DNA of 64,000 nt from Natrinema sp. CBA1119. Its GTDB lineage: Archaea > Halobacteriota > Halobacteria > Halobacteriales > Natrialbaceae. Location: contig NZ_PDBS01000001.1 in assembly GCF_002572525.1 (NCBI RefSeq), positions 186,001-250,000 of the forward strand, written 5' to 3'. A program made the position numbers and the translations under genes. How positions within the stretch are numbered: position 1 is the stretch's first letter; each line of letters begins with the position of its first letter. A model generated the notes under the pieces. That model searched no databases, was not told the DNA's origin, and was given only the letters and a program-made list of their open reading frames with translations. Shown here piece after piece: positions 56,010 through 59,533 of the stretch.

Positions 56010-56873
56010 TCAGTGCTTGTCCGGCATCGTCGAGTGCCGCGTCGTCTTGCGCATATCCGCCCGTTTGGACGGCGGCGGTGCCATCGTCGAGTGGCGGCTG
56101 GGGCCGCTCGACGCCGTTCCACGCTCTTCCTCGCCGCCGAGACCTGATCCCAGAAGACCCTCGTCGTCCTCGTCAGCGTCCGCCTCGTCCGCTTCATCGT
56201 CGACTGTCGCTTCGTCGGCGGCATCGGCGTCGCCTGCGGTCTCACTATCGGCGCTTCCGGCGCTCGCCGACTCGAGTCGCTCTTTGAGCTGCTGGACGTC
56301 GTCCCCGAACTGCTCGAACGAGGATTCCATCGACGATCGGAGGCGGTCCCCGAGATCGTCGGCCGTCTCGTCCGCTTCCGACTCGGCCGCGTCGTCTTCG
56401 GTAGCCGGTGACTCGTCGTCCGGCGCGTCCTCGTCGGCTTTGCTCTCCGCTTCCTCGGCTGCTTGGGCGTCGGATTCGGCCCGTTCGCTCACCGTTTCTC
56501 GGAGATCACCGACAGCCCCTTCGAAGCTATCGTCGTCAGCCCGGTCGGCGAGGTTCGCGAGGTGGAGCAATCGCTGGAGGTCCTCGAGGTTCTCCCGCTC
56601 GCCGCGAGCGATAGCGTCCGGAATCGAATCCGGTTCGGAGCCGTCTTCGAACGTGTCCAGGCCGACCGCCGCGAGCAGTTCGTCTGGGTCGGCCGACTCG
56701 AGGAGGTCGTTCGCCTCCCGAGCGGTCTCGAGCAGGTCCCGTTCGGCCGACTCGCTCTCATCGCCCGAGTCGCTCTCGCCATCCGAATCACTGCCGGAAA
56801 CGATCGACCCGCTGAACGCGTCGGCTTCGTCCAGTACCTCGTGCACTCGATCGTGGAGTTGTGAGTCGGTCAT
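56010..56873 (-). CDS. Acidic protein, unknown function (cluster member 4)
   Basis: A 287-residue cytoplasmic-type protein, fourth in a same-strand cluster of unknown function. Residues 1-120 contain a helical region (LLETAREANDLLESADPDEL, NLEDLQRLLHLANLADRADD); 120-250 is acidic and low in complexity; the last 30 residues are basic and contain RHSTM twice. No signal peptide, no membrane segment. No family recognised. It is 87 bases after the gene at 56961-57911. Confidence 0.65.
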   Translation of the reverse strand: MTDSQLHDRVHEVLDEADAFSGSIVSGSDSDGESDSGDESESAERDLLETAREANDLLESADPDELLAAVGLDTFEDGSEPDSIPDAIARGERENLEDLQRLLHLANLADRADDDSFEGAVGDLRETVSERAESDAQAAEEAESKADEDAPDDESPATEDDAAESEADETADDLGDRLRSSMESSFEQFGDDVQQLKERLESASAGSADSETAGDADAADEATVDDEADEADADEDDEGLLGSGLGGEEERGTASSGPSRHSTMAPPPSKRADMRKTTRHSTMPDKH

Positions 56874-56960
56874 CTGTAGCCCTCGGATATCCCGCCGTTC
56901 GTGCGCGGTAGTCGGCTCGGGAGCGACGGAGTACAGTCGATCGTCTCGTCCCGGCAGCCG

Positions 56961-57911
56961 TCACTCGGCTTCCGCTTCCGTTTCCGACTCCCCGTCCGAG
57001 TCGGAGTCAGGCTCCTCGTCCGTTACCGTCTCGATAATCTCGTCGGTCATCTCCTCTCGGCTGAGGTTCGCCTTCACATCGACGTCCTTCGCGACCGACT
57101 GCAGATCGCTGTAGGACATCACGCCGAGGAAGTCCTCGAGCGTGTCCTTCCGGAGATCCTCGAGGTCCTCCGCGGACGGCTCGTCTGCGCCCGCTTCGGA
57201 CGGTTCGGCTTCGTCGGTCGATTCTTCGCGTTCGTCAGCCGCCTCGTCACCGTCGGCAGCCGATTCGTCAGCTTCGTCGCCCGTCTCGTCGCCGTCCTCG
57301 CTCTCTCCGCCGACCGTCTCTTTGGCTTTGCTGGCAGCTCCTTCGACCGATTCTTTGGCCGTATCGGCGGTCTCTTTAACTGACTCCGTGGTGCTCGTTT
57401 CGTCGCTTTCAGTGCCGTCTTCCGCCTGTGTGTCCGTTTCGTCCGTCCGCTCCTCGTCTTCGGATTCTGCCTGTTCTTCGCCATCGGATTCGTCCTCATC
57501 GGTCTCGTCGGCCTCGTCGCTTCCAACGCCGTCGAGGAGTCCCTCGAGACTACTGCTGTCGGTCACGCCCCTGGCCATGGACTCGAGCGAGTCGCGGCCC
57601 TCTACGTTCGCGACCGACTCGCGGAGGGCGTCCCGAACCGCCGTCGAGAGATCCGTTCGGATCTCGTCGAGTTCCTTCCCGTCCTCGACGCCCGCGGCGA
57701 TCGTCTCGTGGACCTCTCGACCGATGGACGCGCCGACTTCGCGCCCGAACCGTTCGCCGAACTGGCGACCGACCGAAGCGCCGACCTCGCCGCCGTCGAT
57801 GTTGTCCTCAAGGCTCCCGTCACCGAGCATATCGGCGACATCGAGTTGGTTGCTGACCTCGTCGGCAACCATGCTCTTCAGTCCACCGGACTCGTCACTC
57901 ACAGCGACCAC
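56961..57911 (-). CDS. Acidic protein with glycine-zipper and SAP-like ends
   Basis: A 316-residue protein in the same cluster. Residues about 35-75 form a glycine zipper (GGEVGASVGRQFGERFGREV). Residues about 165-190 contain ESVKETADTAKESVEGAASK, of apolipoprotein/LEA-like heptad type. The long acidic middle is low complexity. The C-terminal 55 residues have SYSDLQSVAKDVDVKANLSR, which resembles a SAP/Rho-N helix-extended-helix motif, often nucleic-acid binding. The overall function is unknown; the zipper resembles that of its neighbour at 57956-58435. Confidence 0.65.
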   Translation of the reverse strand: MVAVSDESGGLKSMVADEVSNQLDVADMLGDGSLEDNIDGGEVGASVGRQFGERFGREVGASIGREVHETIAAGVEDGKELDEIRTDLSTAVRDALRESVANVEGRDSLESMARGVTDSSSLEGLLDGVGSDEADETDEDESDGEEQAESEDEERTDETDTQAEDGTESDETSTTESVKETADTAKESVEGAASKAKETVGGESEDGDETGDEADESAADGDEAADEREESTDEAEPSEAGADEPSAEDLEDLRKDTLEDFLGVMSYSDLQSVAKDVDVKANLSREEMTDEIIETVTDEEPDSDSDGESETEAEAE

Positions 57912-57955
57912 CTCGAGTCGATTCGTGGAGCGAGTGCGTTCCCTGAATCACAGTC

Positions 57956-58435
57956 TTATTCCTCGGCTTCGGCCGTCTGCTCTGATTCGTCGTCCGCCGA
58001 TTCCTCATCCGCCGCGTCCGATTCGTCGTCGCCTTGCGCCTCGCTCTCGTCGGCATCAGCCTCGGATTCGTTCTCGGCGCTCTCGTCGTCACTCTCGGCG
58101 TCGGTCTCTTCTGCATCCGCTTCGTCCGCGTCGGCTTCTTCGTCGGACTCATCGCCGTCTTCGGCACTACCTTCGTCGGACTCCTCATCCGTTTCATCCG
58201 CTTCTTCGCCGGAACTGAGGAGTTCGTCAACGACCATATTCCCGATCGTCCGCCCGAGGGATTCGCCGATCGCCCGGCCGAGGATTGCGCCGATCTGTCC
58301 GCCCAGCGCCTCTCCGAGCGGCTTGTCCCCGTCGATCTCGTCTTCCCACTCGGTTCCCTCGACCAGTTCGTCGACGTCGATGTTCTCGGTGATCTTCTCG
58401 GTATCGACCCGCTGTGTGAGTGACTCGTCGCTCAT
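57956..58435 (-). CDS. Acidic protein with glycine zipper
   Basis: A 159-residue protein. Residues about 35-70 carry a glycine zipper (GEALGGQIGAILGRAIGESL); from about 80 on, the tail is almost only Asp, Glu, Ser and Ala. It shares the D-x-I-D-G plus glycine-zipper layout with the gene at 56961-57911, so the two may be paralogous modules. The start overlaps the stop of the upstream gene by one base (TAATG). Unknown function. Confidence 0.65.
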   Translation of the reverse strand: MSDESLTQRVDTEKITENIDVDELVEGTEWEDEIDGDKPLGEALGGQIGAILGRAIGESLGRTIGNMVVDELLSSGEEADETDEESDEGSAEDGDESDEEADADEADAEETDAESDDESAENESEADADESEAQGDDESDAADEESADDESEQTAEAEE

Positions 58436-59424
58436 TATGCTGCCTCCGCCTGTGACGGCTCCGCCTGTCCACCGCTCTCTTCGTCTTGATCCGGCTCGAG
58501 TTGCTCGAGCAACTGTTCGAGCGTCGCGCTAACGATCGCCGAGACGATCTCCTCGGTGGGGACGCTCGGAACGAGTTCGGCCAGCTTCTCTCTCACCCAG
58601 CTCGCCGCCCCCATGACTCCGTCCTTCAGACGCTGTACCGCCGACGAGAGCGGACCGGGGGACTCCTCTTCACTTTCGGACGCTTCTTCCTCTTCGGCGT
58701 CCGCCTCGCTCGCTTCCTCGTCCCCGCCGAAGAGCCCCGTGAGCTTTTCGACGGGCTTGTTCAGCAGACTTTTGACGAACTCGATCGGCTTGCTCAACAG
58801 CGATTTCGCCGTGTCGATCATCGCGCCGGGGCCGTCCAGCAGCCCCGATACCGCCGACAGCAGATTCCCCAGCAGGTTGTTCTCGCCCGGTCGCGCCGAG
58901 ACATCCAGCGTCACCGGATCGAGGTTGACCTCGAGTCCGAGCAGATCGAGGAACAACCCGTCGAGATCAAGGTGGACGACGCCCGACGCGTCGTCGCCCT
59001 GGTAGACCTCGTCGGCACCCTCGACGTGGTACTCGTTTTCGTCCGCCTCGCCCTCGTCTTCGTCCGCATCCTCGCCCTCGCTTTCGGCTTCGATCTCCGG
59101 TTCCTCCGCCGACTCGTCTTCAGCCTCCGACTCATCCTCGGTTTCCGCTTCGTCCTCGGTTTCTGGCTCGTCTTCGGATTCCGCCTCCGCAGCTTCGCCT
59201 TCGGGCTCTTCCACACCCTGTCCTTCATCTCCGGATGCTTCCTCGCTCGAGTCGTCGTCTCGCTCGGCGTCGGACTCCTCCATCTCCGCCTGCCCGCCAT
59301 CGGTGAGCACCCGGCGTGGCGGTCCTGGCATCAACTCGGCCTCGTCGGGACGGCTCGAGGCCCGTTCGGCTCCGTCGAGATCCGAACGTTCCTCGGCGCC
59401 GTCGGATGCGAGATCCTCGATCAT
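58435..59424 (-). CDS. Acidic protein with GNLLGNLL module and amphipathic helices
   Basis: A 329-residue protein, first of the cluster. The first 150 residues are acidic. Residues about 160-215 contain DLDGLFLDLLGLEVNLDPVT then GNLLGNLLSAVSGLLDGPG, which matches a small module I recall from many halophile and bacterial proteins of unknown function. Then follow amphipathic helices (SLLSKPIEFVKSLLNKPVEK) that could touch membrane or protein surfaces. The C-terminus has one more helix pair. Start at 59424, as the frame before it is not protein-like. Confidence 0.65.
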   Translation of the reverse strand: MIEDLASDGAEERSDLDGAERASSRPDEAELMPGPPRRVLTDGGQAEMEESDAERDDDSSEEASGDEGQGVEEPEGEAAEAESEDEPETEDEAETEDESEAEDESAEEPEIEAESEGEDADEDEGEADENEYHVEGADEVYQGDDASGVVHLDLDGLFLDLLGLEVNLDPVTLDVSARPGENNLLGNLLSAVSGLLDGPGAMIDTAKSLLSKPIEFVKSLLNKPVEKLTGLFGGDEEASEADAEEEEASESEEESPGPLSSAVQRLKDGVMGAASWVREKLAELVPSVPTEEIVSAIVSATLEQLLEQLEPDQDEESGGQAEPSQAEAA

Positions 59425-59533
59425 TATACGAAACCACAGACGAGAGTGAGCGTTGTGGGGGTTGGCCTTGCGTATGCGACTGTCCGACGGACTGCGACAG
59501 AACACCCCGCGACGGCCGAACCGATCGACCGCG

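Follow-up and report, generated by a model that had tools for sequence, protein, structure and literature searches.

An acidic four-gene block of Natrinema sp. CBA1119 as a probable gas-vesicle accessory module

The gas-vesicle protein GvpC carries helical repeats of 33 residues in cyanobacteria and of 32-38 residues in haloarchaea (PMC10903477). The accessory protein GvpI forms pairs with GvpH and restricts vesicle length (PMC9501494, PMC4390858), and its N-terminal extension in Natrialba has already been recorded (PMC3403918). According to earlier papers, Natrinema pellirubrum, Natrialba magadii, Halopiger and others have gvp clusters of only 11 genes, with neither gvpC nor gvpDE (PMC4390858; PMC3403918), whereas PMC9501494 (Table 1) gives gvpACNO for these species. 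Here, we analyze a block of four genes, A to D, in a 64,000-nucleotide stretch of Natrinema sp. CBA1119 (contig NZ_PDBS01000001.1, positions 186,001 to 250,000; hereafter the window). The block very likely represents a gas-vesicle accessory module, which in Natrialbaceae lies on the chromosome, a long way from the gvp cluster. In the literature searched, mostly outside subscription journals, we found no description of the four proteins and no named replacement for GvpC in Natrinema, Natrialba, Halopiger and their relatives. The genes are as follows.

58435-59424, minus strand: gene A, 329 amino acids (aa), with an acidic N-terminal tail, a conserved LDLDGLFLDLLGLEV...NNLLGNLL core, 11-residue amphipathic repeats and C-terminal amphipathic helices
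57956-58435, minus strand: gene B, 159 aa, with an N-terminal glycine-zipper domain and an acidic low-complexity tail
56961-57902, minus strand: gene C, 313 aa, GTG start, with an N-terminal domain homologous to that of B, an acidic linker and a SAP-like C-terminal domain
56010-56873, minus strand: gene D, 287 aa, a divergent GvpI paralogue

Four lines of evidence lead to this assignment: the distribution of the block, its linkage to gvp operons or location inside them, the relationship of D to GvpI, and the fact that the block accompanies gvp clusters without gvpC. Distribution was assessed across 322 Halobacteria genomes, with GvpL/F above the Pfam cut-off as gvp marker and A scored by its core. 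GvpL/F was found in 130 genomes and the A core in 105. The two coincided in 104 genomes, while one had A only, 26 had gvp only and 191 had neither (Fisher p=3e-58; the 322 genomes are related, and this value is therefore not a count of independent events). Linkage and decay provide the independent support for the association. The sole genome with A only (G159) has retained ABCD together with a fused gvpJ'-gvpM fragment (L238:7087-7791), which is flanked by the genes that also border the gvp cluster in Natrinema and thus indicates that the cluster has been largely deleted there. A was present in 29 of 41 relatives; GvpA occurred in the same 27 of these genomes as A (in G005, A is core-deleted), and a weak low-complexity match to A in G034 was judged spurious.

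Decay of the two loci can be followed within Natrinema. None of the genomes without gvpA (G006, G014 and G324) has the A core, and G006 and G324 are also without C. In G014, only a scar is left, in which the N-terminus of A runs into the acidic tail of B and D is gone. The block can also decay while gvp stays, as seen in G005, where gvp is present, A has lost its core and the end of D reads as frameshifted.

In 20 of the 104 genomes, A and gvpL are on one contig and no more than about 7 kb apart. In Halocatena (L176, L184), A is found between gvpH and gvpI, inside the gvp operon, and in other families A-B-C adjoins gvp genes such as gvpO or gvpM (for example L200 and L203 from Halohasta, and L175, L199, L204 and L227). 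The 5.06-Mb genome of the window has its gvp cluster about 3.46 Mb from ABCD, arranged as gvpO-gvpN-gvpA and gvpF-G-H-I-J-K-L-M. Pfam or NCBIfam support was obtained for O, A, F, G, J, K, L, M and N, and the cluster contains no gvpC and no gvpDE. In some Natrinema, a second gvp cluster or a single additional gvpA is present at another site or on another replicon (L092 in G021:C4, L090 in G020, L095 in G013:C3).

The order A-B-C-D was kept in 21 of the 21 Natrinema loci compared (20-kb loci), downstream of the same genes, and A-B-C(-D) was also found in many other Halobacteria, including other haloarchaeal families. Two genomes (G037 and G039) encode a single protein in which the N-terminus of B is joined to the SAP-like end of C. 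A preliminary description of this DNA had noted four consecutive same-strand genes for acidic proteins and had taken their travelling together as the test of a common system; the minus-strand open reading frames and their conserved order bear both out. It had also held that membership of each gene in an unrelated known family would speak against a common system; this touches D alone, whose GvpI kinship itself points to gas vesicles. Conserved order and domains rule out that A-D are chance acidic low-complexity reading frames. The first gene pair is indeed coupled by TAATG, base 58435 belonging to both A and B. Each of the four proteins has an isoelectric point of 4.05, 31-42% aspartate plus glutamate and zero cysteines. 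This acidity is ordinary in the organism, in which GvpH, GvpI and GvpO have 26-28% aspartate plus glutamate. None of the four matched Pfam or NCBIfam at cut-off, and A had no match among PLSDB plasmids.

Protein D aligned with the GvpI profile over its full length (hhalign 98.7%, E 2.6e-16), while D against A, B or C gave at most 0.8% and 20 column shuffles at most 0.4%. The NPxxHSTMP...HSTVP signature at the C-terminus of D is also found in annotated Halobacterium GvpI from pNRC100 (45.8%, E 2e-4). D is not located between gvpH and gvpJ but behind C, and the gvp cluster of its own genome has a separate gvpI. D is thus, as judged from these alignments, a divergent paralogue of GvpI and not gvpI itself.

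Further features within and next to the four genes are listed here.

58831-58983, minus strand: conserved core of A, residues 148-198, from alignments; the module is also found in secreted bacterial proteins
58732-58803, minus strand: two 11-residue amphipathic repeats of A, SLLSKPIEFVK and SLLNKPVEKLT, residues 208-231, from the lag-11 self-match
58217-58318, minus strand: glycine-zipper helix of B, residues 40-73
57015-57182, minus strand: SAP/Rho-N/LEM-like helix-loop-helix of C, residues 241-296, a resemblance of fold only (Z 4-5.5)
56013-56102, minus strand: C-terminal signature RHSTMAPPPSKRADMRKTTRHSTMPDKH of D, common to GvpI
59450-59480, minus strand: element GTCGCATACGCAAGGCCAACCCCCACAACGC, conserved 5' of A and probably a promoter or regulatory site

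B and C both combine glycine-zipper helices with long acidic low-complexity regions. The glycine-zipper layout that the preliminary description saw in two of the proteins reflects true homology between the N-terminal domains of B and C, which align across some 69 residues (hhalign 95%, E 3e-8; less than 3% for unrelated pairs). Its SAP-like end is supported for C at the level of fold only: AlphaFold2 (AF2) modelled the end of C with a predicted local distance difference test (pLDDT) score above 90, and SAP, Rho-N and LEM structures were matched at Z 4-5.5. This end gave no Pfam SAP match. A Foldseek search with C returned nothing below E 1.

The core of A has 25 invariant columns among 13 sequences. 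The GNLLGNLL module of the preliminary description is spelled NNLLGNLL in the protein A of the window. After the core come repeats of the form LLxKPxExLxx, amphipathic and 11 residues long, whose copy number ranges from none to several depending on the species. A lag-11 self-match was significant (p<0.01) in 36 of 41 A loci, and the hydrophobic moment of the repeats in the window copy gave p=0.001. The A core was also seen in proteins of Chloroflexota and Salipaludibacillus that look secreted, and in many copies within one Planctomycetaceae protein (L189, L192, L193, L197, L201, L205).

The element upstream of A is 31 bp long and is kept in 22 Natrinema loci. A search with its 21-bp core, allowing up to 3 mismatches, found no second such site in the genome of the window. 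The neighbours of the block are cobalamin-type genes (CbiX, DUF3209-like, WD/PQQ-like) and a tungstate-type ATP-binding cassette transporter, names given by sequence inspection.

The comparison with GvpC covered 80 gas-vesicle genomes, 54 A-positive and 26 A-negative, and scored Pfam-recognised multi-repeat Halo_GVPC (PF05465) proteins. Such a protein was present in none of the 54 A-positive genomes but in 13 of the 26 A-negative ones (p=3.3e-8); one marginal GvpC repeat was found in each of two genomes, G254 (A-positive) and G177 (A-negative). The complementarity holds within families f4, f5 and f12 and within genus g40, where G047 has A and G053 has GvpC. Unlike the listing in PMC9501494, gvpC was absent from the genome of the window and from the clusters examined. 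A is not a plain GvpC homologue, a candidate rejected for want of a PF05465 match or any detectable homology. Its gene does not lie between gvpA and gvpN/gvpO, a slot that is empty in the A-associated clusters examined, with a gap of about 500 nt or less in every one. Gaps of 1.2-1.3 kb were found only in Halobacterium, with gvpC, in the A-negative G257, with a divergent GvpC-like reading frame, and in G020 (its second gvp cluster). Divergent GvpC-like reading frames that occupy the gvpA-gvpN slot, are missed by PF05465 and have a SAP-like segment at the end were noted at L090:14554-15576 and L214:11683-12933. The SAP-like end of C compared with the ends of two divergent GvpC-like proteins gave hhalign 19% (100 shuffles, at most 4.1%), a resemblance not used as evidence here. 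GvpN was above cut-off in 13 of 13 GvpC genomes and in 22 of the 54 genomes with A, so the exclusivity of A does not simply extend to all classical genes; GvpN was missing from the other 32 (e.g., L089:8674-10649). Strong GvpD matches (E <1e-70) were confined to 8 GvpC genomes.

These data suggest how the module might work. With its 11-residue amphipathic repeats, A would attach to the outside of the GvpA shell and stabilise or shape the shell in place of GvpC. The glycine-zipper helices of B and C could let these two proteins pair or oligomerise, and B and C may connect A with assembly factors, while D, like GvpI, would modulate vesicle length together with GvpH. That ABCD plays some role in gas vesicles we regard as very likely from its distribution, genomic context and homologies, but its acting specifically as a GvpC substitute is a tentative proposal. 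Equally tentative is the broader idea that haloarchaea finish the gas-vesicle wall by two alternative systems, either GvpC or the non-homologous A-B-C(-D), the latter often at a second, unlinked locus. If true, it would explain why gvpC is absent from the incomplete-looking gvp clusters of Natrialbaceae. The joint assembly as a coat that was suggested in the preliminary description is compatible with the data, although its proposed substrate, a membrane, granule or nucleic-acid structure, gives way to the gas vesicle. An orphan surface coat, a polyhydroxyalkanoate-granule coat and a nucleoid coat are each rejected in view of the co-distribution with gvp.

Several observations weigh against a gas-vesicle accessory module that replaces GvpC. 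The AF2 model of A consists of helices only, at pLDDT 63, and the predicted shell-binding helix therefore rests on sequence. The A core module is also found in bacterial proteins with no gvp genes nearby. A search for a promoter element common to A and gvpA gave tAGTCGCA as best 8-mer (p ~0.02), longer windows not being significant. In the A-positive Natrinema G020, one of two gvp clusters includes a divergent GvpC-like reading frame missed by Pfam, which makes the exclusivity of A and GvpC a property of clusters and not strictly of genomes; further A-positive genomes may hide divergent GvpC copies beyond the loci examined. The exclusivity is also partly clade-structured, and both A and a recognised GvpC are missing from about 12 gas-vesicle genomes; clusters without GvpC or a detectable A were noted at L209-L213 and L215-L220. 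Finally, published accounts describe Natrinema pellirubrum, Natrialba magadii, Halopiger and others as Vac-negative (PMC4390858; PMC3403918).

Other functions deserve consideration. ABCD could act in nucleation and assembly, with A-C scaffolding the early GvpA/J/M bicone and D setting length with GvpH, and with no wall-stabilising role. We consider this somewhat unlikely: it agrees with the kinship of D to GvpI, the length-limiting partner of GvpH (PMC9501494, PMC4390858), and with the location of A-B between gvpH and gvpI in some operons, but taken alone it does not account for the complementarity of A and GvpC or for the variable number of A repeats. The glycine-zipper helices and long acidic low-complexity regions of B and C would also suit proteins that cluster or tether vesicles, through zipper oligomerisation and disordered acidic tails, in the manner of GvpT and GvpU from Bacillus. 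Such lineage-specific clustering factors have been described elsewhere (PMC10903477). This function is unlikely in our view, because it leaves GvpC replacement and the GvpI homology of D unexplained; no sequence link to GvpT/GvpU was seen, in searches none of which was aimed at one. The present data do not separate these two functions from wall finishing by A-B-C-D. It is, by comparison, highly improbable that ABCD has its function in some other structure or process and is only carried along in gas-vesicle lineages. The megabases between ABCD and gvp in Natrialbaceae and the A core of non-gvp bacterial proteins would fit such a scenario. Against it stand co-occurrence in 104 of 105 genomes with a gvp remnant in the exception, gvp linkage in 20 genomes, joint decay in G014 and the homology of D to GvpI.

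The co-distributed ABCD block is a concrete candidate for missing gas-vesicle parts, and it makes the question of what replaces GvpC testable. Engineering of gas vesicles could draw on it for new shell-binding candidates. At the same time, it calls for caution, as a reconstruction of gas vesicles that starts only from the gvp cluster may omit an unlinked locus.

Among known systems, the roughly 50-residue core of A recurs in bacterial proteins of Chloroflexota, Bacillota and Planctomycetes with a LFLDLGPIFLDLLGLEVDLS...GNLLGNLLCAV module. Several of these look secreted by their N-termini and are encoded away from gvp, whereas A is acidic, has no signal peptide and is gvp-linked. The C-terminal domain of C has a predicted fold resembling the helix-loop-helix domains of SAP, the Rho N-terminus and LEM, but C is a strongly acidic protein, the domain has no family-level sequence match to them, and nucleic-acid binding is not indicated. 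GvpT/GvpU of Bacillota are, like ABCD, lineage-specific gas-vesicle accessory genes with a possibly analogous role, no homology having been shown. GvpI of Halobacterium salinarum resembles D in its full-length alignment and double HSTM/STVP C-terminal signature; D differs in being without the final RxYGxRF segment, in being encoded away from gvp beside A-C, and in coexisting with a true gvpI. Haloarchaeal GvpC resembles A in its acidic tail, in its occurrence with gvpA and, in kind only, in predicted amphipathic helical repeats of variable number. Its repeats are 32-38 residues long, in contrast to the 11-residue KPxE repeats of A, which in addition has the LLGLEV/NLLGNLL core. Moreover, gvpC is located between gvpA and gvpN, whereas A is encoded together with B, C and D and accompanies gvp clusters in which haloarchaeal GvpC is missing.

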